From positions 1-57,194 of the forward strand of contig DFFM01000029.1 of the NCBI GenBank assembly GCA_002369515.1: a DNA stretch of 57,194 nt. Direction: 5' to 3'. Numbering within the stretch: the first letter of the stretch is position 1; every line of letters starts with the position of its first letter. This stretch comes from Prevotella sp. UBA3776. GTDB lineage: Bacteria; Bacteroidota; Bacteroidia; Bacteroidales; Bacteroidaceae. Below are positions 368-40,311 of this stretch, one piece after another. Under the pieces are notes generated by a model that worked only from the letters and a program-made list of their open reading frames with translations, did no database searches and was not told the origin of the DNA. The position numbers and the translations under genes are program-made.

Positions 368-4260
<3,893 letters not shown>

Positions 4261-4274
4261 CGATTTAGTTTCGA

Positions 4275-4352
4275 GGATTTTCAAGACAATAGCTTTATTC
4301 CTGTAATCCTTTTAAGAAAGCTGTCAGAGTGAAGACTATTGTCTTGAAATCC
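4275..4352. repeat. Long inverted repeat between convergent genes
   Basis: Arms GGATTTTCAAGACAATAG (4275-4292) and CTATTGTCTTGAAATCC (4336-4352) are complementary apart from one extra A. A second, inner pair AGCTTT/AAAGCT lies at 4291-4296 and 4317-4322. It sits in the 199-bp gap between the convergent GH97 and apiosidase-like genes. No T-run follows either arm, so a standard intrinsic terminator is not clear, but a bidirectional 3'-end hairpin is the simplest reading. Confidence 0.7.
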
Positions 4353-4459
4353 GCGATTAAGTGAGAGCCAAGCAAGCTTGCTTGCAGATGGCCGAGCGAG
4401 AGCGAATTATGCAACTCCATGAACTCTTTATCACTCCTTGCAACTTATTGTTTACATTA

Positions 4460-5851
4460 CTAGTGAAAGTTGAGTTGTTTCATCTTCTTGGCCAGCGTAC
4501 TGTTGGCATCGACGATGATGAGCACCCCGTCGTACGGGCCGCAGAAGAGGAAGCGTTTCTTGATGTGCCTGATGCCGTTCTTCAGTGTCCCCACAAATGT
4601 CAGGGTTCCGTCTGTTGGGCTATAGCGCCACATCTGTTTCTGTTTGCCGCTGATTTTGCTTATGTCGATTTTCATCGTCGTTGGGTAGCCACAGTCGTAG
4701 GTCAGTATGTAGTCCTTTCCGCGGCATGCCAGTATGCGTTGGCGGCGTGTGCCGTTGTCGATGACGAGGGGCGAGTCGCCCACTCTGTGTTCTGGCGGAA
4801 ATTGTTCCATGAGTCTTCGCAGGTATTTCATTTGGCGGCGGCCATTGTCGCTGAGCGCGTCTTGCCATGAGTGCTTGCTGCCGTTGGCGCCGTAGGCACC
4901 TTTCTTGCCTCGGGCTATAAACTGCATGATTTCGTTGTTGCCATAGGTGTGGCCGCAGCTGCCGGCAAAGACCGACCAGTAGGCATAGCGTCGCACGTCG
5001 TGTTCGTTCCATTTGGGTTGGCTTGCATCGTGCAGTCCTTGGGGAATGTTCTCATAGGAAGGCTCGCCGTCGAGCACGGGCTTGGGTGGTTGGTGTTGCA
5101 GGCAGGAGTCAACATACTGCCAGTTGTCTTCTTCTGTGCCCTCGGCAATGGGATAATATTTGTCGCCATTGCGCTGCCCATAGCGGCGGTGCCCACTCTG
5201 AAACATGTTGAAGTCGAGCCAAGGGCGCTGATGAAACCATTTGGCCGAAAAAGTGCGTCCGCGGGGGTGGAACGTCATGAGGTGGCGTCGGTCGGTGCGT
5301 TTGATGGCTGCGGCCATCGAATCCCACACCTCGGGATGGATGTCGCCCTGGATGTCGCCGCCCATCATCCATATTATGTTGGGTTGGTCGCCATAGCGCT
5401 TGGCCAGAAAATGACCGTAGCAGGCTGCCCTTTCGGTTGTCATCCATCCCCTTTTCACCAGCGATCCCCACACCGGCACCATGGCTACGTAGATGCCGCG
5501 TAGGCGGGCTTCGGCCACAATGCTGTCCAGACGTTGCCAAAAAGGCGCGTCGGCCAGCGTGTCGGGATGGAACTCGTCGTTCATGAGCTGCACCTGAACC
5601 ACGTTGAATTCGTTTTGCATGCAGTCGTCGAGATAAATCCGCGCGTCGTTGATGGTCAGTCGGTGGGGCAGCAACCACCCGGTGTCGCCCAACCAGAAGA
5701 ACGGCCGACCGTCAGTGTGTTGAAGGTATCGGCCGTTTTCCGATACCGACAAATCCCACGTCGTGTGGTCGGCTGTCGGGTTGCCCCATGCCGACGGCGT
5801 ATGGCTGAGCAGCAGACAAAGCAAGGAGACAAGGCGGCAGACTTCTTTCAT
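4460..5851 (-). CDS. Secreted GH140-like apiosidase (DUF4038 family)
   Basis: 463 residues from the ATG at 5849-5851; the frame is open further upstream inside folK but only this Met precedes a signal peptide (1-23). The sequence starts with the typical 'GRYLQHTDGRPFFWLGDTGW' strand of DUF4038/apiosidase-like proteins. D166 (MMGGD) and E263 (LDGEP) are spaced 97 residues apart, as are the catalytic Asp187 and Glu284 I recall for the B. thetaiotaomicron apiosidase BT1012. GH140 enzymes release apiose-linked side chains from rhamnogalacturonan II. The C-terminal 90 residues form a small beta domain. It overlaps the folK stop by 4 bp, so it is the last cistron of a housekeeping operon. Exact substrate is inferred. 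Confidence 0.8.
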   Translation of the reverse strand: MKEVCRLVSLLCLLLSHTPSAWGNPTADHTTWDLSVSENGRYLQHTDGRPFFWLGDTGWLLPHRLTINDARIYLDDCMQNEFNVVQVQLMNDEFHPDTLADAPFWQRLDSIVAEARLRGIYVAMVPVWGSLVKRGWMTTERAACYGHFLAKRYGDQPNIIWMMGGDIQGDIHPEVWDSMAAAIKRTDRRHLMTFHPRGRTFSAKWFHQRPWLDFNMFQSGHRRYGQRNGDKYYPIAEGTEEDNWQYVDSCLQHQPPKPVLDGEPSYENIPQGLHDASQPKWNEHDVRRYAYWSVFAGSCGHTYGNNEIMQFIARGKKGAYGANGSKHSWQDALSDNGRRQMKYLRRLMEQFPPEHRVGDSPLVIDNGTRRQRILACRGKDYILTYDCGYPTTMKIDISKISGKQKQMWRYSPTDGTLTFVGTLKNGIRHIKKRFLFCGPYDGVLIIVDANSTLAKKMKQLNFH

Positions 5852-6258
5852 TCCATAATCTCTTTCAGGGGAATCATCACAAAGTCGCGTTGCTGCATGA
5901 GCGGATGGGGGATCTTGAGGTCGGGCTCGTCGATGGTCAGGTCGTCGTAGAGCAGGATGTCGATGTCGATGATTCGGTCGTGGTAGATGCCGTTGACCGA
6001 CTTCTTTTTGCGTCCCATGCTGCGCTCTATCTCCTGCGTGGCGCTCAACAAGGGTCTGGGCAGCAGGGAGGTGCTGACGCAGATCACCACATTGACAAAC
6101 TCGTTTTCCGAGCTGAAGCCCCATGGTTCGGACACATAAAGAGCTGATTGGCGCTCCACGGTGCCAATCAGCTCTCCTATTTTCTTGACGGCTCGCCGAA
6201 TGTTGGCTTTCTTGTTGCCAAGGTTCGACCCGAGCCCCAGATAAACCACGTGTTGCAT
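5848..6258 (-). CDS. folK: 2-amino-4-hydroxy-6-hydroxymethyldihydropteridine diphosphokinase
   Basis: 136 residues, close to the minimal HPPK length. YLGLGSNLG (6-14) is the pterin/ATP-side motif and DRIIDIDILLYDD (94-106) carries the two magnesium-binding aspartates (D98, D100), followed by IPHP (116-119). It transfers pyrophosphate from ATP to the pterin in folate synthesis in the cytoplasm. It starts 5 bp downstream of queA and overlaps the apiosidase-like gene by 4 bp, so it belongs to the ftsX-to-folK operon. Confidence 0.95.
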   Translation of the reverse strand: MQHVVYLGLGSNLGNKKANIRRAVKKIGELIGTVERQSALYVSEPWGFSSENEFVNVVICVSTSLLPRPLLSATQEIERSMGRKKKSVNGIYHDRIIDIDILLYDDLTIDEPDLKIPHPLMQQRDFVMIPLKEIME

Positions 6259-12033: not shown

Positions 12034-12396
12034 ATGAAAAAACTGACCAACAAAGAAAAGGAAATCATGGAACTGTTCTGGCAACACGGCCCCATGTTTG
12101 TGCGCGAGCTGCTGGAGTGCTACGCCGAGCCGCGGCCCCACTTCAACACACTTTCCACAATCGTGCGGCTGTTGGAGAAGAATGGATTTCTGGATCATCG
12201 GCAGTATGGCAATAGCTACCAGTATTTCGCCAAAGTGACCGAAAAGGAGTATGGCAAGAGCTCGATGGCGGGAGTAGTGAAGAACTATTTCAACAACTCC
12301 TACCTGAGTGCCGTTTCTGCCTTTGTGAAGGAAGAGAAAATCAGCGTTGACGAGCTGAAAGAGCTCATCAGCCAGATTGAGAAAGGCCAAGCATGA
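12034..12396 (+). CDS. BlaI/MecI-family winged-helix repressor
   Basis: 120 residues starting MKKLTNKEKEIMELFWQHGPMFVRELLE, the standard BlaI/MecI N-terminal winged helix, with a C-terminal dimerisation region rich in K/E. Family members repress target promoters as dimers and are inactivated by proteolysis triggered by a BlaR1-like membrane peptidase. The partner gene overlaps by 4 bp (ATGA). No beta-lactamase gene is adjacent, so the regulon is unknown; the operator dyad upstream suggests it controls at least itself. Confidence 0.93.
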   Translation: MKKLTNKEKEIMELFWQHGPMFVRELLECYAEPRPHFNTLSTIVRLLEKNGFLDHRQYGNSYQYFAKVTEKEYGKSSMAGVVKNYFNNSYLSAVSAFVKEEKISVDELKELISQIEKGQA

Positions 12397-14021
12397 GCGA
12401 GTTTCTGATGTACGACTTCCACGTGGCGGTGCTCATAGCCACGTTCTACCTGTTCTGGCGGCTGTTGCTGGCCCGCGAAACGCTCCACCGGCTCAACCGC
12501 GCTGTGCTGCTGATTACGGCGGCGCTGTCGTTCGTGCTGCCGCTGTGCGTCGTTACGCTTCATCGCAGTGTGGTGGTGCCGGTGGCGGAGCGTACCACGG
12601 CGGCAATGCCAACGGCCACGGTGGAACGGGTGGCAACGGGTCAACCCTGGTGGATGACGGCGGCTGTGGCGGTGTTCCTTGCGGGTGCCCTGCTGACGCT
12701 GGCATGGACGCTCCTTTCGGTGGGCCGCGTGTGGCGGCTCGTCAGGAACAGCGAACTGCACCCGCAGGGCGACGGCACGGTGGTGGCCGTGACAGACAGA
12801 GACTTGCAGCCTTTCAGTTGGATGCACTACATTGTAATGAGTCGTAGCGACTACGACCACCCCGATGCCGCCATCTTAGCCCACGAACGAGGCCACGTCA
12901 GCGCGCACCACTCGTGGGACGTGCTGTTGGTGGGGGTGTTCAGCGTGCTGCAATGGTTCAACCCGGCTCTGTGGCTGCTGCGCCGCGACCTGCGCGCCAT
13001 TCACGAGTACGAAGCCGACGCAGCCGTTCTCTCTCAAGGCATCGATGCACGTCAATATCAGTATCTGTTAGTAAGAAAAGCTGTGGCAACTCACGGGTAC
13101 TCCGTTGCCAACAGTCTGAGTCACAGTACCCTGAAACGAAGAATCAACATGATGTTAAGAAAGAAAACCAATCGCCTACAGTGGCTCCGCGCCCTGTATA
13201 TCGTTCCCGTCGTAGCCATTTCGTTGGCCGTCAGTGCCCGCACGGTGGTGGACTACCAGATGCAACTCCCGACTCCCGCCAAAGCGGAGGTGAAAGCCAC
13301 CGCTGGAGTGTCATCAGGGGCATTGCCCAATGCTGACCAGGACAACAAGGTGAAGGACAACAGGAAAAAGGTGAGGATTCCCGACGAGGCGACGAACGCC
13401 CACCCATTGGTCATCGTAAACGGAGCGGAAATGCCCTACGACCGTTTTGTGGAGATCAGTCCCAATATAGTCAAAAGCATAACAGTGCTCAAAGACGAAG
13501 AGGGCCGAAAGAAATATGGAGCAAAGGCCAAGGACGGTGTCATCGTGGTGGAGATTGAAGACCAGCCCAACAAGAAAGGCCACGAGCCCTTCAAGGTGAA
13601 GGGACAGGTGGTGGACGAACAGAACCAGCCCGTCATTGGTGCCACCGTCATGGTGAAGGGCACCAAGCAGGGCACCGTTACCGACATGGATGGCAACTTC
13701 AGCATCGTTGTGCCCGACGGTGCCACCATCGAGGCGGCCTACATCGGCATGGCCACCAGTTCGGTGAAGGCCGACCGCGCTGTCATGGCTCCGAAGGAAG
13801 GCAGCGAGTGTCTCGTCAACTTCAAACTGAAGAAGGACGGTTCGGACGCTGTGCCGACTGCCAAGGCGACAAGCAAGATTGTCACCCGCGTGGTGGTGGA
13901 TGGCAAGGAAATGTCGATGGAGGAGTTTGAAACCACCACCGAGCCTGACAATATAGAGTCGATGAGCATCGACAAGACCGACCCGAAGCACATCAAGATA
14001 AAGGTCAGCACGAAGAAGTGA
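12393..14021 (+). CDS. BlaR1-like M56 membrane peptidase with CarboxypepD_reg-like domain
   Basis: 542 residues. Three N-terminal membrane helices (about 5-25, 30-50, 88-112) are followed by the zinc-peptidase motif HERGH in ILAHERGHVSAHH and the downstream EYEAD ligand, then a fourth helix near 270-290. Instead of the penicillin-binding sensor of true BlaR1, the periplasmic part carries a segment resembling a TonB-receptor plug (VIVNGAEMPYDRF...GAKAKDGVIVVE) and a CarboxypepD_reg-like beta-sandwich (VKGQVVDEQNQPVIGATVMVKG). It probably cleaves the BlaI-like repressor upon an unknown envelope signal. The pair forms one operon. Confidence 0.88.
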   Translation: MSEFLMYDFHVAVLIATFYLFWRLLLARETLHRLNRAVLLITAALSFVLPLCVVTLHRSVVVPVAERTTAAMPTATVERVATGQPWWMTAAVAVFLAGALLTLAWTLLSVGRVWRLVRNSELHPQGDGTVVAVTDRDLQPFSWMHYIVMSRSDYDHPDAAILAHERGHVSAHHSWDVLLVGVFSVLQWFNPALWLLRRDLRAIHEYEADAAVLSQGIDARQYQYLLVRKAVATHGYSVANSLSHSTLKRRINMMLRKKTNRLQWLRALYIVPVVAISLAVSARTVVDYQMQLPTPAKAEVKATAGVSSGALPNADQDNKVKDNRKKVRIPDEATNAHPLVIVNGAEMPYDRFVEISPNIVKSITVLKDEEGRKKYGAKAKDGVIVVEIEDQPNKKGHEPFKVKGQVVDEQNQPVIGATVMVKGTKQGTVTDMDGNFSIVVPDGATIEAAYIGMATSSVKADRAVMAPKEGSECLVNFKLKKDGSDAVPTAKATSKIVTRVVVDGKEMSMEEFETTTEPDNIESMSIDKTDPKHIKIKVSTKK

Positions 14022-14141: not shown

Positions 14142-17100
14142 TCATCGCGGCTGGCAGTCTTCCTGTCGGCTGCCCCAGTCGTAGTTGGGCGTCGAGCCCA
14201 TGGAGAGGCGCAGTGTTCCGCCGTTGATGATGTCGTTGTGGGTGATGTAGTTCTTGCTGTAGGGAACGCCGTTGAGCGTGGCGCTCTGGATGTAGTAGCA
14301 GTCGGCCCATGGGTTGTCGTTCTCGATGGTGAAGGTCTTGCCGCTGCTCAGATGTATTTTCACGCTCTTGAAGGCGGTGGTGCCCAGCATGTAGTAAGGT
14401 GTTGCGGGGCAGACGGGATAGAATCCCATTGACGAGAACAAGTACCATGCCGACATCTGTCCGGCGTCGTCGTTGCCGGAGAGTCCTCCGGGCACGTTCT
14501 CGTACTCGCTGTCCAGGATGCGGCGCACTTCGCGTTGCGTCTTCCAGGGTTCACCGGCGTAGTTGTACATGTAGGCCATCTGGTGGCAAGGCTCGTTGCC
14601 GTGCCAGTAGCGGTTGTGCTGGAAAGTGCTGTCCAGACGAGCCACATAGTGGATTTTTCCGCCCATGGCCTCCATCAGTCCGTAAGGGTCGTGGGGAGCG
14701 TAGAAGGTGTAGTGGCAGGGTGCGCCCTCGGTGATGAACTTCACGCGCTGCGCCACGTTGTTGTCGTTGATGAATTGTCCGTTGGCATGGCGTCCCTGTG
14801 CGTAGCCCGTGCGCGGGTCGATGACGTTGCGGTAGTATTGCGAGCGTGCCATGAGTTGCTGGTAGTCGTCGTCCTTGCCCAAGAACTGTGCCACTTGCGC
14901 CAGTGCGAAGTCGTCGTAGGCATACTCCATGGTGCGGCTCACCTGCTCGTCGCCGTGCCAGGCTTCGCGGATGACTTCCTCCACGGGGATGAATCCGTAC
15001 TTCAGGTATGCCGAGATGCCGCGTCGTCCGTTGCCGTTTTTGAATTCGCGCATGGTGGCCGATGTGCGGAAGGCGTTCTTGTACATGCCTTCGTAGGCGT
15101 TGGTGATGTCAAAGTTCTTCACCCCCTTCACGTAAGCGTCGCTCAGGGCCGATATGCAGTGGTCGCCAATCATGGCGCCGGTGTAGCTGTTCCAGCAGGG
15201 GAAGATGGGGAGCCAGCCGCCCTGCTGATACATATCTACGAGGCTCTGCATCATTTCGCCGTTGGTCTTGGGTGCGATGATGTTGAGCAGTGGGTGCAGG
15301 GCGCGGTAGGTGTCCCACATGCTGAAGTCGGTGTAGTATTTTGCGCCGCGGTAGGCCTGCTGGGCTTCCGTTCCGTTGAATCCCGGATAGCGGCCGTCCA
15401 CGTCGCTGAACTCGCGGGGCAAGAACGACGCGCGGTAGAGTGCGCCGTAGAATTTGCTTTCGGCTTCGGTGTCGTCAGTTTCAATCTCGATAAGTCCCAG
15501 TCGCTGCTGCCACAGTTCGTTCAGTTCGTTGCGGGTTTTCTCGAAGTTCCAGTGGGGGATTTCGCTCTGCAGGTTGCGCTGCGCCCCCTCAATGTCGTTG
15601 AACGACGAGGCGGCCTTGACCAGTATCTGGTCGTCGCGCTTGGTGTCGAAACAGAGGTAGAATCCAATGTTCTTTTGGTAGCCTATCTGCGTTTGTCCCG
15701 GATAAACCTGGTCGCCGCAGTAGGTGCCGAAGCTGCTGGGGGCGCGGTCGTACTTCACCACGAAGAAACCGCTGAAGCCGGCCTTTTCGCCCATTCCCTG
15801 ATAGATGCGGTGAACTGGGTTGAAACCATACACCTCGTGGCGCACGGTGTCGATGGCGATGAAGCCTTCGCCCTCGTCGCTGTTGGGATTGATGACCACA
15901 TAGGTGCGCGACGGTCCGTCGCAGGTGAACCTCATGATGGCCGAGTGCGAGCGTCCGGTCAGTTCGGCGGTGATGTGCTCCCAGGGCAGCTGCACCGAGT
16001 AGTAGTCGGGGTGTGACACCTCCTTGTCGTGCTCGAAGGGTGTGGCGCGCCGTTCGGGCGTGGTGCGCAGCGAGTCGCCCAGAGCGGCGATGGTGAACGA
16101 GCCGTAGTCCTGAGTGCATCCGCCGTTGATCCAATGGCTGTTGCGGAATCCCATCCAGCGTGTGTCGCTATAGTAATAAGGTGCCACGCACTTCAGCTCG
16201 GTGTCTCGCGTTTGGGGCGTCCAGAAGTTCATGCCGTTGGGCTCCAGCACTGCGGGAATGGTTTGTCCACTCTGTTCGGTGCCTTGGGCGTAGATGCTGG
16301 CCGAGGGCATTACGGCCTTGTCGGTGCCCACCATGGTGTTGAGCATGGCCACGCGTTCGCGGCGGCGAGCCAGGCTCAGCCACTTGGAGTAGTATTCCTT
16401 CACCTCGTTCCAGTGGTAGAAGGTGCCCATGGTGGTGGGCATGGCGAGTTGCACCTCGCGCTCGTTGTGGAGGAATTTCACGAGCACTTCGCCGCGCTCG
16501 TTGTGGTAGAAAATCATCTGCAAGTTGGCAGCCATGGGAATGATGTTGAACATGTCGTCGCCCAGGTTGATGCCCAGCAGCGTGAGCAGACGGTAGAGGC
16601 TGGTGTCGTGGCCGAAGCGCAGGTCGGCGGCTATGCCGTTGCCGGCGATGGCTGCATCGGCACTCTCGACGATGTTCTGCCAAAGCGAGGTGGCCGACAT
16701 TTCGGGAGCGTCGTTGTTCGAGGCGTCCTCGCCGTTGATGAGGCGCATGCGCTCGTCGTGCCAGTCTTCCAGTTCCTGCATCTCCTGCTGGGTGAAGATG
16801 TCGAAGAGGTTCACCTTCAGTTCCACGTTCTGCATGTCGGCCGCAATGGTGTGGAGCTCTTCCATCAGTCCCAGCGGATCCTTGATGCGCGTGGGGTCGC
16901 GGAACAGCTCGCGCATGAGTCGTTCGCTGCTGCCGTAGAATTTGGGGTGTACCGTGGCGTAAAGTTCCTCTATCTGTGGCGAACTGTAGGCCAAATAGCT
17001 CATGTAGCGCGGGTCGGAGTCCTGAGTGACCCAAAGCTCCTCGTTCATTTTCTTGAGCTGCGCACTGAAGGCGTTCATGCTCTTTATGCAGCGGTTGGAC

Positions 17101-17552
17101 GTGCTCGAGCGAGCCACGACGGTTTTCTTGCCTTTCAGCACTTCGGGGAAACGCTTCATCATGCGCTCGGCAATCTCGCGGTGCTGCTGTGCGCCCAGGG
17201 GCGTGAGCTGTCCGGCGTTGCCTTCGGCGTTGGCCATCACCTTCTGCAGCCGCTGTCGCACCGAAATGCCCAGCTTGGTCAGGTTCTCGCTCTCCATGAA
17301 CTGGTCATACACGCGCTGGTAGCGTTCCTGCTTGGTGAGCCAGCGCGACCCGTGGCGGCCGTAGTGGCTGATGTAGAAGGGCGTGTAGCCCTTGGGGGCA
17401 GCGGTGAGTTTGCCCTCGTAGGGGTGGTAGGCATAGTAAACGCCGCCCGTCTGCTCGGGCGTGTGCTTTTGGCTTTTCTGTGCCGAGCCGTTGGCAGCCA
17501 TTGCCAGGGCGAGCACGGTGAGAATTGTTCTGAAAGCTTTCATTGTCATCAA
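14142..17552 (-). CDS. Secreted histidine phosphatase-GH92 alpha-mannosidase fusion
   Basis: 1136 residues with a signal peptide (1-24). Residues about 35-410 are a histidine phosphatase of the phytase/MINPP branch: the catalytic motif is HYGRHGSRWL (R66, H67, R70) and the distal proton-donor pair is H315-D316 (RFGHD). From about 435 to the end it is a GH92 exo-alpha-mannosidase, with GMGEKAGFSG-type N-domain strands, YRALHPL, EG.P.HYTF.APHD, HGNEPCHQMAYMYN and GGLSGNDDAGQMSAWY motifs; GH92 enzymes need calcium and invert. The two activities in one chain suggest a substrate carrying both phosphate and alpha-mannose, such as phosphomannan or mannose-6-phosphate glycans. It is a single gene with its own promoter. 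An alternative start is M4. Confidence 0.9.
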   Translation of the reverse strand: MMTMKAFRTILTVLALAMAANGSAQKSQKHTPEQTGGVYYAYHPYEGKLTAAPKGYTPFYISHYGRHGSRWLTKQERYQRVYDQFMESENLTKLGISVRQRLQKVMANAEGNAGQLTPLGAQQHREIAERMMKRFPEVLKGKKTVVARSSTSNRCIKSMNAFSAQLKKMNEELWVTQDSDPRYMSYLAYSSPQIEELYATVHPKFYGSSERLMRELFRDPTRIKDPLGLMEELHTIAADMQNVELKVNLFDIFTQQEMQELEDWHDERMRLINGEDASNNDAPEMSATSLWQNIVESADAAIAGNGIAADLRFGHDTSLYRLLTLLGINLGDDMFNIIPMAANLQMIFYHNERGEVLVKFLHNEREVQLAMPTTMGTFYHWNEVKEYYSKWLSLARRRERVAMLNTMVGTDKAVMPSASIYAQGTEQSGQTIPAVLEPNGMNFWTPQTRDTELKCVAPYYYSDTRWMGFRNSHWINGGCTQDYGSFTIAALGDSLRTTPERRATPFEHDKEVSHPDYYSVQLPWEHITAELTGRSHSAIMRFTCDGPSRTYVVINPNSDEGEGFIAIDTVRHEVYGFNPVHRIYQGMGEKAGFSGFFVVKYDRAPSSFGTYCGDQVYPGQTQIGYQKNIGFYLCFDTKRDDQILVKAASSFNDIEGAQRNLQSEIPHWNFEKTRNELNELWQQRLGLIEIETDDTEAESKFYGALYRASFLPREFSDVDGRYPGFNGTEAQQAYRGAKYYTDFSMWDTYRALHPLLNIIAPKTNGEMMQSLVDMYQQGGWLPIFPCWNSYTGAMIGDHCISALSDAYVKGVKNFDITNAYEGMYKNAFRTSATMREFKNGNGRRGISAYLKYGFIPVEEVIREAWHGDEQVSRTMEYAYDDFALAQVAQFLGKDDDYQQLMARSQYYRNVIDPRTGYAQGRHANGQFINDNNVAQRVKFITEGAPCHYTFYAPHDPYGLMEAMGGKIHYVARLDSTFQHNRYWHGNEPCHQMAYMYNYAGEPWKTQREVRRILDSEYENVPGGLSGNDDAGQMSAWYLFSSMGFYPVCPATPYYMLGTTAFKSVKIHLSSGKTFTIENDNPWADCYYIQSATLNGVPYSKNYITHNDIINGGTLRLSMGSTPNYDWGSRQEDCQPR

Positions 17553-17581: not shown

Positions 17582-17589
17582 CAAAGGTA
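17582..17589 (-). promoter_or_regulatory. Promoter -7 box for the phosphatase-GH92 gene
   Basis: TACCTTTG on the minus strand, 30 nt upstream of the start codon. Confidence 0.65.
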
Positions 17590-17684
17590 CGATTAAGCGC
17601 GCAAAAAGCAAAATATTTTTTGACTTTTTCGGGCGTGTGTGCCCTCTACGGAAGCATGAGCAATGTTTTTCGGGATAAATCCGT

Positions 17685-17712
17685 TTGGTTTCGAAAATAA
17701 TTTGTAATTTTG
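17685..17712 (+). promoter_or_regulatory. Promoter of typA
   Basis: -33 TTG at 17685-17687 and -7 box TAATTTTG at 17705-17712, 20 bp apart from T to T. The leader before the ATG at 17736 is about 20 nt. Confidence 0.75.
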
Positions 17713-17735
17713 CACGCGAAATAAGGAAAAAGATT

Positions 17736-19541
17736 ATGCAAGACATTAGAAACATAGCGATTATCGCGCACGTTGACCACGGAAAGACTACTCTCGTAGA
17801 TAAGATGATGCTGGCCGGCAACCTGTTCCGCGAAGGGCAGGACTTGAGCAGCCAAGTGCTTGACAACAACGACTTGGAGAGGGAACGGGGCATCACCATT
17901 CTTTCGAAAAACGTTTCCATCAATTATAAAGGAGTGAAGATCAACATCATCGACACTCCGGGACACAGCGACTTCGGCGGCGAGGTGGAGCGTGTGCTCA
18001 ACATGGCCGACGGCTGTTTGCTGCTGGTCGATGCTTTCGAAGGCCCCATGCCGCAGACGCGCTTTGTGCTGCAGAAGGCACTGGAGATTGGGCTGAAGCC
18101 CATTGTGGTGGTGAACAAGGTGGACAAGCCCAACTGCCGGCCGGAGGAAGTTTACGAAATGGTGTTCGACCTGATGTTTTCGCTCAATGCCACCGAGGAC
18201 CAGCTGGACTTCCCGGTGGTGTATGGTTCGGCCAAGCAGGGCTGGATGGGCGAGGACTACAACACGCCAACCGACGGCATCACCTATCTGCTGGACAAAA
18301 TCATCGAGGTGATACCCGCTCCGAAACAACTGGAAGGCACACCGCAGATGCTCATCACGAGTTTGGACTACAGCAGCTATACAGGCCGCATCGCCGTGGG
18401 TCGAGTACACCGCGGAACCCTGAAAGACGGCATGCAGGTGACCATTGCCCATCGCGACGGTTCGCTGGAGAAAACCCGCATCAAGGAACTGCACACGTTC
18501 GAAGGCATGGGCCATGTGCGTACGAAGGAAGTGGCCTGCGGCGACATCTGCGCTGTGATAGGCTTGGAGCATTTCGAGATTGGCGACACCATTTGTGACT
18601 TCGAGAATCCCGAGGCGCTGCCTCCCATCGCCATCGACGAGCCCACCATGAGCATGCTCTTCACCATCAACGACTCGCCTTTCTTCGGCAAGGAGGGCAA
18701 GTATGTCACCTCGCGCCACATCAACGACCGCTTGGAGCGCGAACTGGAGAAGAACCTGGCCCTGCGCGTGGAGCCTTTCGAGGACTCTACCGACCGTTGG
18801 GTGGTTTCTGGCCGTGGTGTGCTGCACCTGAGCGTGCTCATCGAAACCATGCGCCGCGAGGGCTACGAACTGCAAGTGGGCCAGCCCCAGGTGATTTACA
18901 AGGAGATGGATGGAAAGAAGTGCGAGCCCATCGAAGAACTCACCATCAACGTGCCCGAGGAGTTTGCCTCAAAGATGATTGACATGGTGACGCGCCGCAA
19001 GGGCGAGATGACCAGCATGGAAAGTCAGGGCGAACGCGTGAACATCGAGTTCGACATGCCTTCGCGTGGCATCATAGGTCTGCGCACCAACGTGCTCACG
19101 GCCAGCCAGGGCGAAGCCATCATGGCCCACCGCTTCAAGGAGTATCAGCCCTACAAAGGCGACATAGAGCGTAGGCAGAACGGTTCGATGATTGCCATGG
19201 AAACGGGCACGGCCTATGCCTACAGCATCGACAAACTGCAAGATCGCGGCAAATTCTTCATCGACCCCGGCGAGGAAGTGTATATGGGCCAAGTGGTGGG
19301 CGAGCACGTCCACGACAAAGACCTGGTCATCAACGTGACCAAAGCCAAGCAGCTGACCAACGTCCGTGCCAGCGGCAGTGACGACAAGGCGCGCATCATT
19401 CCCAAGACGGTGATGAGCCTGGAGGAATGTCTGGAATACATCAAGGCCGACGAGCTGGTGGAGGTGACGCCCAAGTCGATGCGCATGCGCAAGACCATCC
19501 TCGACCATGACCAACGGAAGAAGGCCATGAAAGAGATTTGA
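17736..19541 (+). CDS. typA: Translational GTPase TypA/BipA
   Basis: 601 residues. The G domain starts at the N-terminus with [11 protein letters not shown] (G1, K17-T18), [16 protein letters not shown] (G3) and NKVDKP (G4); domains II and III and the BipA-specific C-terminal domain follow with [21 protein letters not shown]. It is a ribosome-binding elongation-factor-type GTPase important under stress and low temperature. The start at 17736 puts the protein directly at the usual [19 protein letters not shown]-terminus; the longer reading frame begins at the promoter itself. Confidence 0.97.
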
Positions 19542-34406: not shown

Positions 34407-35333
34407 ATGAAGACATTCTGGAACACAACAGGAGGCCTGAAAAAACTCGACCAGTGGCAACCCAACTGCTGGATTCAGGTGACGTGCCCCACCGACGACG
34501 ACCAGCGCGAACTGGAGCAGCGATTCAACATTCCCGACTATTTTTTCCCCGACATCAGCGATGCCGACGAGCGTGCCCGCTACGAATACGACGACGGCTG
34601 GATGCTCATCATCCTGCGCATTCCCTACGTAAAGGAAATCCGTTCGCGCACACCTTACACCACGGTGCCGCTGGGCATCATCCACAAGCGCGACGTGACC
34701 ATCACCGTCTGCTACTACGAAACCAACATGATGATTGACTTCGTGTCGTTCCAACAAAAGCGCGGCGAGGGATTCACCGACTATGTCGATATGATTTTCA
34801 GACTGTTCCTCAGCAGTGCCGTGTGGTACCTGAAGCGGTTGAAGCAAATCAACACCCTCATCGAAAAAGCCAAGCAGAACCTGGACCACGAGGTGAACAA
34901 CGAGAGCCTGATAGGACTCTCGCGCCTGCAAGACTCGCTGACCTTCTTCATCACTTCCATCCGCGGCAACGAGAACTTGCTGCAGAAGTTGAAATTCAAG
35001 CTCCAAGTGGACGAACTGGATGCCGACCTGATTGAGGACGTGACCATCGAGATGACGCAGGCCCGCGAAACGGCCAACATCTACAGCGACATTCTCGAAT
35101 CGACCATGGACACTTACCAGAGCATCATCAACAACAATATGAACACCGTGATGCGAACGCTCACCAGCGTCAGCATTCTCATGATGTTCCCAACGCTCAT
35201 AGCCTCGCTCTTCGGCATGAACCTCATCAACGGCATGGAGTCGTCGCCTTTCGGCTTTGCCATCGCACTCATCATTTCGGTACTGGTTTCGGTGCTCATT
35301 TGGTGGCTTTTCCGACACAAAAGGCTCATCTAA
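34407..35333 (+). CDS. corA: CorA-family magnesium/divalent-cation channel
   Basis: 309 residues from ATG 34407. The N-terminal alpha/beta cytoplasmic funnel is followed by two C-terminal helices; the selectivity motif GMN is at 271-273 (LFGMNL) and the last residues are basic (FRHKRLI). It forms a pentameric magnesium channel in the inner membrane. An upstream Met at 34368 is possible but gives an atypical N-terminus. The long leader with a small ORF and hairpin suggests post-initiation control. Confidence 0.93.
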   Translation: MKTFWNTTGGLKKLDQWQPNCWIQVTCPTDDDQRELEQRFNIPDYFFPDISDADERARYEYDDGWMLIILRIPYVKEIRSRTPYTTVPLGIIHKRDVTITVCYYETNMMIDFVSFQQKRGEGFTDYVDMIFRLFLSSAVWYLKRLKQINTLIEKAKQNLDHEVNNESLIGLSRLQDSLTFFITSIRGNENLLQKLKFKLQVDELDADLIEDVTIEMTQARETANIYSDILESTMDTYQSIINNNMNTVMRTLTSVSILMMFPTLIASLFGMNLINGMESSPFGFAIALIISVLVSVLIWWLFRHKRLI

Positions 35334-35337
35334 TAAG

Positions 35338-38172
35338 ATGAAAGATGAAATATTAAATACGAAAGATGAGTATCTGAAAATGAAAGATGAAAGACAGGAC
35401 ACAGGAAACACTTTCTTTAATCTTTCTTCTTTCATCTTTCCTTTTTTAAAATACACTGCAAACCGTGGGCTGTGCCGCGTGGCACTGCTCACGCTGCTCC
35501 TATTTGCCTTTTTCCGGCAGACAGCAGCCCAGCCTGTTTGTACGGTGACGCGATATAATGAGGATGCGGGCATGTCGCAGTGGCACATCACGCAGATGCT
35601 GCAAGACAAGAACGGCATGATGTGGTTTTCCACTTGGAACGGGCTCGACCGTTTCGACGGCTACGAGTTTGTCAATTTCAAGTCGCATGCCGGCGACGGC
35701 CACAGTATGCCCAACGACCGTATGCGCGACATGCGCATGGACGACGACGGCAGCCTGTGCCTGAAAACCGACACGTCGTGGTATGTGTTTGTCCCGCACG
35801 ACGGCACCTTCCGCAAGGCCGACGCAGCGCGAAACAACCATCTGAATGCCAGCCTGAAGGGGCGCGGCGCGGTGGGCGCCAAGGCGCGCACCGTGGAGCA
35901 TCGCGACGCCAACGGCTACTCGTGGACCATCGATGCCACAGGGCAGTTGTTCTACCAAAAGCAAGGCGTTCCGCCAACGGCCTACGCCATGGAGTATCCG
36001 TTGGCGGACATTAAATTCTTTATGAGCGACCGTCAGCACAACTTGTGGCTCCTCACCGGCAAGGAAGTCTTTAAGCTGAGTTTTGCCGTGCGCCCATCCA
36101 CTCGCTTGCCGATGGACAGCCGCTCGCAGGTGCGCGCCGTCTTCATCGACCGCAAGCAACGTTACTGGGTGGCCACCAAAGACGATGCCCGGCTGCGGCT
36201 CTACGACCGGAACAACCGCCTGCTGGGCTTTGTCGGTCCCGACGGAAGTCTCTCGCAGCATCCTGTAGCTTTCGGTGCCTCGGTCTATTGCATCGCGCAG
36301 ACCCGCGACGGGGCCTTCTGGATGGGCACCAAGCCCGACGGTCTCTTCCGTCTGCAAGAAACGGCACCGCAGCGTTTCGCCGTGGAGCACCTGACCGATG
36401 CCGTGCCCTGCAGCAACATCTACGACCTGAAGGAAGACAAGCAAGGACGGCTTTGGGTGGCTACCATGGACGGCGGAATCAGGTGTGTCAACGATACGCG
36501 ACACCCGACGACATCCCTTGCGTTGCCCGCCGTATTCCACGAAAAACTGTCGGCGGAAGCGAACCCGCAAACCGCTACCCCCCGCCAGATACGCTTTCTG
36601 CACATCACCCGCGAAAACGTGCTGCTGGCCGCCACCACCGAAGGACTGCTGGTAGGACAGATTCCCGCTTCGGGCGACCTGCGGCAAATGCGCTTCAAAC
36701 TGCACCGCAAGGAGGCCGACCGGCCGTCGAGTCTCAGCTGCAATGCTACGATGGACGTGCTCGAGACCCCCGACCACCAACTGTTTGTGAGCACAGAGAG
36801 CGGAGGAGTAAACGAAATCTGCTCCACCGATATCTTGGCCGACCGGCTGGATTTTCGGCACTATAACCAGAAAAACGGGCTGAACTCAGACATTGCCTTA
36901 TCGCTGACATGGCACGACGGCCAGATTGTCATTGTGAGCAGCAACCAGCTCATGACGCTCTGTCCCGGCAGCGATTCGTTTGGTTTCTACAATGCCAGTT
37001 TTTTTCACGAGCCTTTCCAGTTCTCCGAGTGCCATCCACAACAGTTGCCCGACGGCCGGTGGGTGTTTGGACTGATGGACGGAGGCATCAGCCTGTCGCC
37101 CGATTTCTTCCGCAAGAGCAACTATGTGCCCCCTATTGTGCTGACGGGCATTGATACGCCGGGCACCAGCACCACGCTGCGCCCTTCTCCCGACTTGCGC
37201 TCGTTTACTCTGCAGCCCCGCGAGCGCAGCCTGACGGTTTATTTCGCAGCACTCGACTACGAAAATCCCGAAGCCATCAGCTATGCCTACAAACTGGCCG
37301 ATGACTCTGTGTGGAACTATATCGGCCACAACCGTGTGGCCTCGTTTGCCAATCTGAAGCCCGGCAATTACGAGCTGCAGCTCCGCTCCACCAATGCCGA
37401 CGGTGTGTGGGTGGACAACGTTCGGGCGCTCACCATTGTGGTGCGTCCCACCTTTCTGGAAGCCTGGTATGGCCAACTGCTGATGTGGCTGCTGGCCATG
37501 GCTCTTGTCGGTGCGGTGCTTTATACCTATTTTTATGTGAGGCGCATCAAAAGGCAGCAACACGACACCCTCGAGAAATATCTGGCATTGGTTTCTGCCC
37601 AATCAGGCCCCTTCACTGCCCCATCTTCTTCCTCCGACAATGCGCCCCTTTCGGTTGCCGAGGGGACTACAAATACTTCGTACACTGATAATACTGCCGG
37701 GAGAACTATTGAAGCCTCATCGGTGGCAGTAGGAGGAGCCTCTGCGGGGACAACAGGAGAAACTTTCTCTGGCACCGAAGTTGGGCCTTCACTAGCGAGA
37801 ACACAAGTCGGGATTTCGGGGGGAGGCACGCCCTTGAAGCGCGAGGACGAAGCCTTCATGGCACGTGTCATGGCGTTTGTGGAAGCACACATCGGCGATG
37901 CCGACGTGAACATGGGCGACATGGCCGATGCTACTGCCACCAGCCGTTCGGGACTCAACCGCAAAATGAAAACTCTGGTGGGACTCACTCCTGCCGACTT
38001 TCTTCGTGAGGCACGGCTCAAACGGGCAGCACGGCTGTTGCTCGACACCGCCGACCCCGTATCAGACATTGCCTACCGCTGTGGCTTCACCGACCCGAAG
38101 TATTTCGGCAAGTGCTTTAAGACTTCCATGGGTGTTTCTCCCACTGAGTACAGAAGTGGCAGAGAAGGGTGA
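35338..38172 (+). CDS. Membrane-anchored beta-propeller sensor fused directly to an AraC DNA-binding domain
   Basis: About 944 residues from ATG 35338 (Met at 35380 is an alternative). After a helix near 45-65 come two-component-regulator propeller repeats (DKNGMMWFSTWNGLDRFDG, DGAFWMGTKPDGLFRL, DKQGRLWVATMDGGI), a Y_Y_Y domain (YAYKLADDS.WNYIG...YELQLRSTN), a membrane helix (LLMWLLAMALVGAVLYTYFY) and, after a Ser/Thr/Gly-rich linker of about 90 residues, an AraC domain (ATSRSGLNRKMKTLVGLTP; VSDIAYRCGFTDPKYFGKCF). This is the sensor and output of a hybrid two-component system without histidine kinase or receiver. It starts 4 bp after corA and precedes two pectin genes, which are its likely targets. 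Confidence 0.88.
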   Translation: MKDEILNTKDEYLKMKDERQDTGNTFFNLSSFIFPFLKYTANRGLCRVALLTLLLFAFFRQTAAQPVCTVTRYNEDAGMSQWHITQMLQDKNGMMWFSTWNGLDRFDGYEFVNFKSHAGDGHSMPNDRMRDMRMDDDGSLCLKTDTSWYVFVPHDGTFRKADAARNNHLNASLKGRGAVGAKARTVEHRDANGYSWTIDATGQLFYQKQGVPPTAYAMEYPLADIKFFMSDRQHNLWLLTGKEVFKLSFAVRPSTRLPMDSRSQVRAVFIDRKQRYWVATKDDARLRLYDRNNRLLGFVGPDGSLSQHPVAFGASVYCIAQTRDGAFWMGTKPDGLFRLQETAPQRFAVEHLTDAVPCSNIYDLKEDKQGRLWVATMDGGIRCVNDTRHPTTSLALPAVFHEKLSAEANPQTATPRQIRFLHITRENVLLAATTEGLLVGQIPASGDLRQMRFKLHRKEADRPSSLSCNATMDVLETPDHQLFVSTESGGVNEICSTDILADRLDFRHYNQKNGLNSDIALSLTWHDGQIVIVSSNQLMTLCPGSDSFGFYNASFFHEPFQFSECHPQQLPDGRWVFGLMDGGISLSPDFFRKSNYVPPIVLTGIDTPGTSTTLRPSPDLRSFTLQPRERSLTVYFAALDYENPEAISYAYKLADDSVWNYIGHNRVASFANLKPGNYELQLRSTNADGVWVDNVRALTIVVRPTFLEAWYGQLLMWLLAMALVGAVLYTYFYVRRIKRQQHDTLEKYLALVSAQSGPFTAPSSSSDNAPLSVAEGTTNTSYTDNTAGRTIEASSVAVGGASAGTTGETFSGTEVGPSLARTQVGISGGGTPLKREDEAFMARVMAFVEAHIGDADVNMGDMADATATSRSGLNRKMKTLVGLTPADFLREARLKRAARLLLDTADPVSDIAYRCGFTDPKYFGKCFKTSMGVSPTEYRSGREG

Positions 38173-38233
38173 TTTTTGCAGCAAAAAGCTTCTTTGGCAC
38201 TTTTTTACCCCCATACCGACACTTTTTTCACCC

Positions 38234-38305
38234 GTTTCTTTAGGTTTTTAGTAGTACTTTTGCAGCAGAATTTGCAAAAAAGTATTATTAAAAACCTAAA
38301 GAAAC
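38234..38305. repeat. 17-bp inverted repeats bracketing a promoter
   Basis: GTTTCTTTAGGTTTTTA (38234-38250) and its exact complement TAAAAACCTAAAGAAAC (38289-38305) flank a 38-bp segment that carries the -7 box TACTTTTG. The inner sequence continues the symmetry (TACTTTTGCA against TGCAAAAAAGTA). The left arm is upstream of the predicted transcription start, so the dyad acts as DNA, not RNA. Confidence 0.9.
38255..38262 (+). promoter_or_regulatory. Promoter -7 box of the pectin esterase genes
   Basis: TACTTTTG inside the inverted repeat element, 50 nt before the ATG at 38313. Confidence 0.7.
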
Positions 38306-38312
38306 AACTACG

Positions 38313-40208
38313 ATGAAACGATTTACTTTATTTTGTTTGCTTGCCTTGATGATGGGCTGCTTCGGCTTAAGCATTCAAGCACAGACCGTCCATACGCTGG
38401 GCGATTCCACCATGGCAAATTACGAAGAGGATGCCACCGTCACCCGTGGATGGGGCATGTATTTTGGTAACTTTCTCACGGATGGCTGGAGCTCTATCAA
38501 TTATGCCCTCGGCGGACGAGACACCTACGGCGGCTACAACGAACTCTGGCAGAAAGCCAAGAAACAGGTGAAAGCCGGCGACTACGTCATCATCTCCTTT
38601 GCCCACAACGACGAGAAAAACGATGGCATGGACGGACGGCAACTGAAAGCCTACTACGAAAGCATCGGCGACCAGAATGCAGCAAATGCCGTTGATTTGC
38701 GCGGCAGCATCCCCTCTACCACCTACAAGGAGAACCTTGGCAAAATTGTTGACGAGGCTCGTGAGCTGGGTGCCATACCTATTATATGTTCACCCGTGTG
38801 CCGCAGCTATTTCAGTGGCTCCACCATCTCACGCAAAGGCCGTCATGACCTGGGCGAAGGCTACAAGGTGCTCACAGAAAATGGTCCTGTCGAGGGCCCG
38901 AAACTTCCGGCCGACGATCACACCATGGACTATGCCTGGCATTCAGAGCAGCTGGCCAAGGAGAAGGGCGTCAGTTTTATCGACCTGACCAATGCCACCG
39001 CCAAACTCTATCTGAGCTACGGCACCCGCAGCAAGTGCGAGGAAACGCTCTTCGACGGCACGGGCTCTACCCACTTCAACACGATGGGCGCCCTGTTGGT
39101 GGCCCGCGAGTGTGCCCGACTGATGAAAGAGCAGGGCATTCTGGCCGACAATATCACCATTCCCACCGAACTCACCGTCAGCCCCACCTCTGCCGACTTG
39201 GGCGAAGCCTACAAAGGACAGACGCTCGTCAAGGAACTGACCATCAACGCCTTCAGCATGACTCCCGCTGAGGGTAGCGTCGTGGTGACCGCCAGCGACG
39301 GCATTTTGCTCTCACTCAACAAGTCGGACTGGGCCTCGCAGCTGACCATCGACTACAAGGAAGGCACGCTCGTCAAGACCTTCTATGCCCAGCTGTCGCT
39401 CACCCAGGATGGCGAGAACGCTGGCACTGTCAGCGTGAGCCAGGGTGAAAGCACCGTTGAAGTGGCCCTCACGGCCACGGCCATTATCTTAGAGGGCGGA
39501 GCCGAGATGAACGCCTACTGGCGACTGGAGAGCAACGACAACTGCGAGCTGACCGGCATGGCCAACGTCGTGCCTCAGACCTTTCAGGGCATGTATGTGC
39601 AACGGTACTCCAACCCCAACAAAGCCTCGGAGTGGCCCGAGTGGACAGGCTTTGATGCTTCGCGCAAAATGCAGCGCGACCTGTTGACGGGCGACAAGTG
39701 GCCCGCCGACGAAATAGACGACAACCCCGAACGTTACATTCAATGGGGCGTCAAGCCCGTTGAGGGAACCGAACTGAAGATTGACCTCATTTCGCTCTTT
39801 GTTTCTGGCTGCGGCGGCAACGGCATGTGCTGCCACATCTATTACAGCATCGACGATTTCGCCACCCGCACCACCATTTTCGAAATGAAGAAAATGCCTG
39901 CCAACAATCCGAAGTATGTCGAGGCCAAGCCCGTGCTCACCGTGGGCGAAGGACAGCAGTTGCTAATACGTGTTTATCCCTGGTACAACGGCACGGCCGA
40001 GGGAAAGACCATCTGCCTCTCCGATCTCACCATCCACGGCATGGTTGTCAGCACCTCTACGGGCATCAACAATATTCAACACCCGTCAACCAGCAGTCTG
40101 CAGCCAAAATCTTTTTTTACCGCTGACGGGCGGCAGTTGGCGCAAATGCAGCGTGGTCTGAACCTGGTGCGCTTGGATGACGGAACCGTCATGAAACTGA
40201 TTAAATAA
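38313..40208 (+). CDS. Secreted SGNH/GDSL esterase, rhamnogalacturonan-acetylesterase-like, with C-terminal domains
   Basis: 631 residues, signal peptide about 1-24. The SGNH block is at the N-terminus: GDSTM (D31-S32 with nucleophile S32), GGRDTYGGY, ISFAHND (block III) and STHFNTMG with H254. The usual Asp three residues before the His is not at its standard place (G251-S-T-H); an Asp occurs at 248. About 290-395 is an Ig-like domain, 400-590 a beta-sandwich that may bind carbohydrate, and the tail (FFTADGRQLAQMQRGLNLVRLDDG) resembles sorting-type C-termini of Prevotella. It probably deacetylates pectin ahead of the CE8 enzyme encoded next. Confidence 0.8.
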   Translation: MKRFTLFCLLALMMGCFGLSIQAQTVHTLGDSTMANYEEDATVTRGWGMYFGNFLTDGWSSINYALGGRDTYGGYNELWQKAKKQVKAGDYVIISFAHNDEKNDGMDGRQLKAYYESIGDQNAANAVDLRGSIPSTTYKENLGKIVDEARELGAIPIICSPVCRSYFSGSTISRKGRHDLGEGYKVLTENGPVEGPKLPADDHTMDYAWHSEQLAKEKGVSFIDLTNATAKLYLSYGTRSKCEETLFDGTGSTHFNTMGALLVARECARLMKEQGILADNITIPTELTVSPTSADLGEAYKGQTLVKELTINAFSMTPAEGSVVVTASDGILLSLNKSDWASQLTIDYKEGTLVKTFYAQLSLTQDGENAGTVSVSQGESTVEVALTATAIILEGGAEMNAYWRLESNDNCELTGMANVVPQTFQGMYVQRYSNPNKASEWPEWTGFDASRKMQRDLLTGDKWPADEIDDNPERYIQWGVKPVEGTELKIDLISLFVSGCGGNGMCCHIYYSIDDFATRTTIFEMKKMPANNPKYVEAKPVLTVGEGQQLLIRVYPWYNGTAEGKTICLSDLTIHGMVVSTSTGINNIQHPSTSSLQPKSFFTADGRQLAQMQRGLNLVRLDDGTVMKLIK

Positions 40209-40311
40209 CCGTAGTTACGGGAAAAATTAAAGAAAAGGAACAAGGCTGAAAGAATTATTCTCAGGCTCCCGCAAAATGTATCAAAACAAATAATCAAATA
40301 CTAACCTGACA

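Follow-up and report, generated by a model that had tools for sequence, protein, structure and literature searches.

Why should a Prevotella make an alpha-mannosidase and a phosphatase as one exported polypeptide, and on what substrate would both act? The question is raised by a gene at 14142..17552 on the minus strand of a 57,194-nucleotide stretch of Prevotella sp. UBA3776 (contig DFFM01000029.1; the whole stretch is here called the window). Its product joins a signal peptide, a branch-2 histidine phosphatase and a glycoside hydrolase family 92 (GH92) alpha-mannosidase, as delineated by the open reading frame (ORF), Pfam, an alignment of 56 fusions and AlphaFold2. The phosphatase-GH92 fusion is real and a single chain; it is conserved, its active-site residues are intact, its halves remain linked where they are split, and in some loci a metallophosphoesterase takes the place of the phosphatase. 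We suggest that the protein works, after export, as a bifunctional enzyme of a SusCD-type system for the head groups of plant glycosylinositol phosphorylceramides (GIPCs), a reading which, judged from sequence, has in our view an even chance of being right.

Domains and active sites of the fusion

The frame (14142-17552, -) comprises 1136 codons counted from a TTG with zero internal stops, and a search of the source assembly again found the fusion as one open frame (contig C26). The histidine phosphatase domain occupies 16335..17462 (-), approximately residues 30-405 when numbered from the ATG at 17549, and carries RHGSR at 65-69, R153 and H314-D315. The GH92 N-terminal and catalytic domains lie at 14145..16292 (-), approximately residues 420-1135, with the acid E941, HGNEPCH at 983-989 and GNDDAGQ at 1025-1031. 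The catalytic roles of the conserved residues in both halves, including E941 as acid and D1027/D1028, are assigned by analogy with their families. The RHGSR and HD motifs stand where an earlier sequence-only reading of this gene had placed them, its H67 (counted from the TTG) being H66 when counted from ATG 17549.

Membership in GH92 is indicated by both domains at full length, GH92N (residues 424-650, E 1e-40; PF17678 positions 7-236 of 236) and the catalytic domain (residues 656-1120, E 6e-169; PF07971 positions 1-464 of 464), and by a TIGR01180 score of 538.7 bits against a cut-off of 249.55. Pfam His_Phos_2 matches residues 66-166 (E 1.1e-9), covering only model positions 10-116 of 354, and sequence homology to PDB entry 7r5y extends over residues 31-390 (E 6.3e-49). 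The RHGxR motif and the fold of branch-2 histidine phosphatases are both present in this half. Entry 7r5y is deposited as the multiple inositol polyphosphate phosphatase (MINPP) of Prevotella sp. CAG:617, in complex with a 'myo-inositol hex...' ligand. AlphaFold2 was run for the whole chain on the alignment of the 56 fusions (55 of the 120 listed database proteins described below, and the window's own), giving a mean predicted local distance difference test score (pLDDT) of 85.9 and a predicted TM score (pTM) of 0.78. Foldseek matched each half to a solved relative, GH92 BT2199 (E 5.1e-55) and 7r5y (E 5.4e-26), the latter being the first match of the phosphatase half, at 32% identity. The earlier claim of one exported chain with a phosphatase and a complete GH92 was in this way confirmed by frame, Pfam, homology and structure prediction.

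In all 56 aligned fusions R65, H66, G67, S68, R69, R153, H314 and D315 of the phosphatase are invariant, as are E941, H983 to H989, N1026 and D1028 of GH92, and D1027 is kept in at least 90%. From these sequences the GH92 half is predicted to be a Ca2+-dependent inverting alpha-mannosidase and the phosphatase half to hydrolyse inositol phosphates.

Distribution of the fusion

A database search with residues 20-410 of the fusion matched 1320 proteins (E<=1e-10). Of the 120 that the search listed, 116 contain all three Pfam domains. Among the others, P0018 (644 aa) is without the GH92 catalytic domain and P0118 has no precomputed His_Phos_2 (P-numbers denote database proteins, G-numbers genomes and L-numbers loci). 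Two further proteins are of different build: P0039 (849 aa) is a tandem double phosphatase, and in P0082 (961 aa) the phosphatase domain is fused to a metallophosphoesterase. The phosphatase-GH92 fusion is thereby a conserved architecture, already present in databases in large numbers as a domain arrangement; among the matches listed from the open-access literature, no description of the fusion or its locus was found. The sequence-only reading had raised the possibility of two separate genes; joining by misassembly is unlikely, because the complete fusion is seen again in L005, L006, G122 and G150 and in the three-domain database proteins.

In a phosphatase tree of 30 rows, where the window's fusion is represented by its near-identical kin L005 and P0001, all phosphatase-GH92 fusions fall within one clade of 20 (support 99/99), which also contains the stand-alone phosphatase of G075 and P0082. 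Split Bacteroides phosphatases form a weaker clade of seven rows (80/87). In a GH92 tree of 80 rows (quick method; G100 was left out as too short), fusion-type GH92s make up a separate clade of 28 (SH-aLRT 100) and the subgroups GH92b/c another of 12 (SH-aLRT 100). The GH92s of the phosphatase fusions form one group of six (87), together with the unfused G060. Because the fusions group in single clades of both trees, a single fusion event with later losses would suit the data.

Split halves and partner genes in Bacteroidaceae

When genome contigs were scanned, 74 loci were obtained, six of which (L005-L010) have a phosphatase domain, in addition to L001 and L002 of the source genome. L005 and L006 are fusions. 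In the remaining four, L007-L010 (Bacteroides merdavium, Caecibacteroides pullorum, Bacteroides sp. RGIG4661 and Bacteroides sp. 519), the two halves are encoded by separate genes, in the opposite order within one locus (60-62% for GH92, 40-48% for the phosphatase). All four of these SusCD loci encode an HGSNAT-type glucosamine acetyltransferase and a GH28-like enzyme, and three (L007-L009) a GH89 alpha-N-acetylglucosaminidase and a second GH92, with SusCD and a hybrid two-component system (HTCS) regulator; in L010 neither GH89 nor a second GH92 was seen within the stretch examined. For L007, Pfam identified the HTCS, GH89 (NAGLU), the HGSNAT_cat acetyltransferase, GH28, the second GH92 and SusD, while SusC and a 180-aa protein, X180, were assigned by ORF and similarity. 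In L009 a 5'-nucleotidase-type metallophosphatase of another kind adjoins the phosphatase.

The survey covered 151 genomes of the window's family, taken from its named members to be the GTDB Bacteroidaceae, Prevotella included; 97 of them gave a match at E<=1e-60; among the matches listed, 26 genomes, the source genome included, reach at least 49% identity. Of the other 25, all but G090 had their gene contexts examined, as did G075, a phosphatase match. A recurrent set emerged, consisting of SusCD, HTCS, GH89, HGSNAT, fusion-type GH92, GH28, phosphatase, GH92b and X180, and it is rarely complete. Phosphatase-GH92 fusions lie inside this set in G122 and G150, near a SusC/SusD pair (SusC is cut by a contig end in G122), and in L006 SusD is near the fusion. 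Other members of the set are fused too: GH92-GH28 (G078), GH92b-X180 (G031, G001), X180-phosphatase (L009) and GH28-GH88-GH92 (G083, G044 and G017, Pfam having been run on G044 only). The last chains (L132:2770-7485, L134:1003-5718 and L135/L136; 1567-1571 aa) hold three glycosidases each, a GH28 with canonical motifs, a GH88 and a fusion-type GH92. In G100 (L137:2482-7352, -) GH28, phosphatase and GH92 form a triple fusion, the GH92 end of which is separated by a stop or frameshift, through either an assembly error or decay. X180 (L007:14969-15511, -; L196:5992-6558, +; and relatives) is approximately 180 aa long, has no Pfam domain and has 73 homologs at E<=1e-5; its predicted structure (pLDDT 90.8) gave weak matches that include the lipid carriers LolA, LppX and LprG, and MucB/RseB.

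Fusion-type GH92 loci (24, with flanks of up to 9 kb, several contigs being short) were compared with 20 other GH92 loci of Bacteroidaceae. The loci share ancestry and certain genomes entered the control set twice, so the following Fisher p values overstate the difference and serve as guides only: GH28 of any subgroup, no farther than 9 kb away or part of the same polypeptide, is found in 15/24 against 0/20 (p 9.8e-6), a phosphatase of either family in 9/24 against 0/20 (p 0.002) and GH89 in 6/24 against 0/20 (p 0.025). HGSNAT occurs in 6/24 and 1/20. The nine phosphatase-bearing loci comprise six with a histidine phosphatase (three in the same chain) and three with a metallophosphoesterase.

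Metallophosphoesterases and relatives outside the family

In those three loci (G028, G121 and G135) the metallophosphoesterase follows GH28, where the phosphatase would stand. Across 152 regions (151 distinct), made up of the fusion-type loci, controls, named loci and phosphatidylinositol-specific phospholipase C (PI-PLC) loci, the two phosphatase families were never found together, P0082 joining both in one chain; they seem to replace each other. The metallophosphoesterases of these loci and of Flavobacteria belong to one family, each listed pair having at least 33% identity over 508-692 aligned positions. A different, 317-aa metallophosphatase adjoins GH92 in G032.

Outside Bacteroidaceae 68 named loci (L011-L078) were inspected. 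In L013 (Chitinophagaceae) GH89, GH2, GH92b, GH28b, a fusion-type GH92 (46%) and GH28 (62%) stand in a row. L067 (Wenyingzhuangia marina) encodes GH92s, GH28b, GH2, GH89, HGSNAT, PI-PLC-C1 (PF16670, E 3.5e-126), GH115 (E 5.6e-131) and a metallophosphoesterase. PI-PLC was detected in 26/395 Bacteroidota genomes, and in nine of the 20 of these whose loci were examined a metallophosphoesterase is near PI-PLC-C1. A PI-PLC close to that of L067 is present in 13/299 genomes; in the 11 loci examined (G815 was left out, G754 is identical to L067 in PI-PLC, and G352 also belongs to the 20-locus set) a metallophosphoesterase occurs in ten, and GH115 is next to PI-PLC in five, as in L067. The G598 locus packs PI-PLC, GH115, metallophosphoesterase, GH92b, X180, GH89 and HGSNAT into 34 kb. 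In 59 kb of G352 the locus-type GH28 is present and GH115 was not seen. G734 and G581 additionally encode GH29, GH3, a GH115-like protein, GH125 and transporters. GH115 (six regions) and locus-type GH28 at >=50% (19 regions) do not co-occur in any of the 152 regions, an exclusion that is partly one of lineage, because 17 of the 19 GH28 regions are from Bacteroidaceae and all six GH115 regions are flavobacterial.

Substrate and proposed pathway

The partner genes suggest what the substrate may contain: alpha-mannose, because of GH92; terminal alpha-glucosamine, because of HGSNAT with GH89; and uronic acid, because of GH115 and the GH28/GH88 partners. Phosphate on inositol is more likely than phosphate on mannose, since PI-PLC adjoins the metallophosphoesterase, the two phosphatases seem interchangeable and the closest solved relative of the histidine phosphatase is an inositol polyphosphate phosphatase. 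Plant GIPCs would be the best fit because the partner enzymes match their bonds (glucosamine or N-acetylglucosamine, glucuronic acid, inositol, phosphate and ceramide, GlcN(Ac)-GlcA-Ins-P-Cer, with mannose). In the literature the GIPC core is given as GlcNAc(a1-4)GlcA(a1-2)myo-inositol-1-PO4-Cer (PMC6151786), followed by Man, Glc, GlcN or GlcNAc (PMC12201980); fragments of barley grain GIPC indicate hexose on inositol phosphate (PMC12201980), and the main form in Arabidopsis is Man-GlcA-inositol phosphorylceramide (PMC9113257). Phospholipase C is described as releasing inositol phosphate glycans from GIPC (PMC11496612), and GH115 as an alpha-glucuronidase (PMC3879575). Such inositol phosphate glycans are what the fusion would meet.

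Every enzymatic step, the order of steps and the substrates given here are inferred. Ceramide would be released by a phospholipase C, in Flavobacteria by their own PI-PLC and in Bacteroidaceae by one that others make or that is not yet recognised. HGSNAT would acetylate the terminal glucosamine so that GH89 can remove the residue, GH92 enzymes would take off mannose, and GH115 or the GH28-like enzyme would take off alpha-glucuronic acid. The phosphatase, or the metallophosphoesterase replacing it, would then liberate inositol and phosphate. Within this scheme the fusion would belong, as a gene-fused component, to a conserved utilisation system of SusCD type, its GH92 half removing alpha-mannose and its phosphatase half a phosphate monoester from an inositol-phosphate glycan.

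Several observations weigh against this proposal. In the source genome the fusion (contig C26) is not on the contig of SusCD, GH28 and GH92c (C17), and a search made without a positive control found no match to GH89 or HGSNAT in this assembly (66.7% complete). SusC is not enriched near fusion-type GH92s (6/24 loci, 9/20 controls). Partners were not seen in eight of the 24 loci (G072, G053, G066, G106, G060, G084, G006 and G019), four of which have a flank under 2 kb, and none was seen in L011 and L012 (49% GH92). G140 has GH28, HGSNAT and GH89 and no phosphatase of either family in 36 kb. In the locus GH28 the catalytic Asp motifs are retained and the GHG and R.K motifs of canonical polygalacturonases are missing, so that a role of this enzyme as a uronidase is unsure. 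The HAE proton-donor motif of Bacteroides MINPP (BtMINPP) is not found, HD standing instead in 30/30 phosphatase rows; this does not exclude the wider MINPP group, since 7r5y, deposited as MINPP, has HD too. GH92 was found in only one (L196, of G352) of the 20 PI-PLC loci, and the pair of PI-PLC and metallophosphoesterase is not specific to GIPC because in Flavobacteria it occurs also without these glycosidases. PI-PLC-C1 was found in 0/151 Bacteroidaceae genomes, so that these bacteria would depend on a different lipase or on glycans set free by other organisms. Finally, no GH92 is known to act on mannosyl-inositol.

The sequence-only reading had proposed phosphomannan or mannose-6-phosphate N-glycans, the phosphatase removing phosphate from mannose-6-phosphate before GH92 continues. 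The part of it that places phosphate and alpha-mannose on one substrate is supported by the unfused halves staying in one locus (L007-L010) and by the lack of a phosphatase of either family in all 20 control GH92 loci. The named glycans would explain an alpha-mannosidase and a phosphatase in the same exported chain, and yet they do not need GH89, HGSNAT, GH28/GH115 or PI-PLC and leave the MINPP-like fold and kinship unexplained. Nor is the proposed order, in which mannose is uncapped first, supported: the GH92 acid is Glu in 56/56 fusions and not the Gln of CcMan5. We consider this identity of the substrate unlikely. Slightly better placed, though still improbable, are glycosylphosphatidylinositol (GPI) anchor glycans or fungal inositol phosphoglycans (Man-Man-Man-GlcN-Ins-P), from which GH92s would take the mannoses, HGSNAT with GH89 the glucosamine, and the phosphatase an inositol or mannose phosphate. 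Two GH92s, HGSNAT, GH89, PI-PLC and the inositol-phosphatase kinship all fit, that is, everything but the uronic-acid enzymes. The GPI core, as recorded in PMC6151786, has no uronic acid, which leaves GH28, GH88 and GH115 without a role, an objection that loses force should the divergent GH28 not be a uronidase.

A different phosphorylated uronic-acid glycan, such as the core of a bacterial lipopolysaccharide, or a capsule, containing GlcN-uronic acid and manno-configured sugars, would account for GH28/GH88/GH115, HGSNAT with GH89 and the phosphatase; since neither the PI-PLC beside the shared metallophosphoesterase family nor the inositol-phosphatase kinship is explained, we regard it as quite improbable. 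We think just as little of the view that the domains act on separate substrates (for instance phytate and the mannose of plant N-glycans) and are fused for co-export only. The deposited function of the closest solved phosphatase favours it, as does the gene standing alone in the window and in L005; on the other side, the unfused halves remain linked, with the same partners, in several genomes, and three loci have another phosphatase family in the place of the phosphatase.

Returning to plant GIPCs, a wider picture, to which we give somewhat less than an even chance, would be that Bacteroidota possess a dedicated transport-coupled GIPC system with one enzyme per head-group bond, in which gut Prevotella fused the mannosidase and the inositol-phosphate phosphatase, marine relatives add phospholipase C and alpha-glucuronidase, and the sphingolipid head serves as a source of food and phosphate. 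If true, it would offer a genetic handle on the fate, in rumen and gut, of plant sphingolipid heads from the diet as well as of inositol and phosphate, suggest roles for the HGSNAT-type, GH28-like and metallophosphoesterase genes of the locus, and provide a source of enzymes for GIPC glycan analysis.

Gene start, export and genomic neighbourhood

The fusion probably starts at ATG 17549 or ATG 17543 rather than at TTG 17552. A hydrophobic N-terminal signal peptide, MTMKAFRTILTVLALAMAANGSAQ (17478..17549, -), was read by eye, and the AlphaFold2 model has a helix at residues 3-25 in this segment. Because a lipobox cysteine is absent, as judged by eye, the protein is probably exported in soluble form. 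Directly upstream lies TTTG-N19-TACCTTTG (17582..17612, -), a match to the Bacteroides-type promoter consensus; with this consensus five matches were counted in the window against 0.41 expected.

The fusion gene stands alone in the window and in L005. Its convergent neighbour (12393..14021, +; Pfam) is a membrane peptidase of M56/BlaR1 type fused to CarboxypepD_reg, and an M56/BlaR1-like gene, judged by sequence start, adjoins the fusion in L006 too. The divergent neighbour (17685..19541, +; Pfam) is TypA/BipA, as in L005 by sequence start. Neither is thought to be part of the system, and no SusC or SusD domain was found in the 22 neighbouring window ORFs scanned. On contig C17 (9615-19359; L079 and L080 joined) lie GH28, SusC, SusD, a piece of GH28b and GH92c with an X180-like tail, which we propose as the rest of the locus in the source genome. 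Elsewhere, C47:504-1748 encodes a second, stand-alone branch-2 phosphatase with the HD motif, approximately 30-33% identical to the fused one. The window also contains GH97 and apiosidase-like genes near its start (2080-6124), a propeller AraC-type regulator, a GDSL esterase and a pectinesterase with Big_5 (35257-44190), and GH26 (52180-53403).

Comparison with known systems

Among the matches listed from the open-access literature, the proposed system for plant sphingolipid sugar-phosphate heads is so far undescribed, and its components can be set beside known ones. The GH92 enzymes BT2199, BT3990 and BT3130 (PDB 2wvy, 2wvx and 6f8z) share the fold of the GH92 half along its entire length (TM to target 0.87-0.92), together with the general acid Glu and base region, at approximately 30% identity, whereas the fusion adds a phosphatase at its N-terminus and has EGAPC where 2wvx has EGNSW. 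7r5y and BtMINPP (4fdt) have the same fold and RHG catalytic residues as the phosphatase half (32% and 23-24% identity, respectively). 7r5y has HD, like the fusion, while BtMINPP has HAE (an A324D/E325N mutant is named); both are stand-alone chains, unlike the phosphatase here, which is joined to GH92 and has links to a glycan locus.

CcMan5, a GH92 that uncaps Man-P-Man, has Gln in place of the general acid, in contrast to Glu941 of the fusions. Bacteroides polysaccharide utilisation loci for mannan or N-glycans comprise SusCD, HTCS and GH92 enzymes; in our comparison GH28, GH89 and both phosphatase families were missing from every control GH92 locus. Lysosomal HGSNAT and NAGLU acetylate terminal alpha-GlcN and then cut alpha-GlcNAc, acting on heparan sulfate. 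These two families also adjoin in L007, but beside alpha-mannosidases and an inositol-type phosphatase. The GIPC-phospholipase C of Botrytis, as described in PMC11496612, attacks the same lipid as proposed here and yields what would be the substrate of the fusion, but it is fungal and cuts the lipid only.

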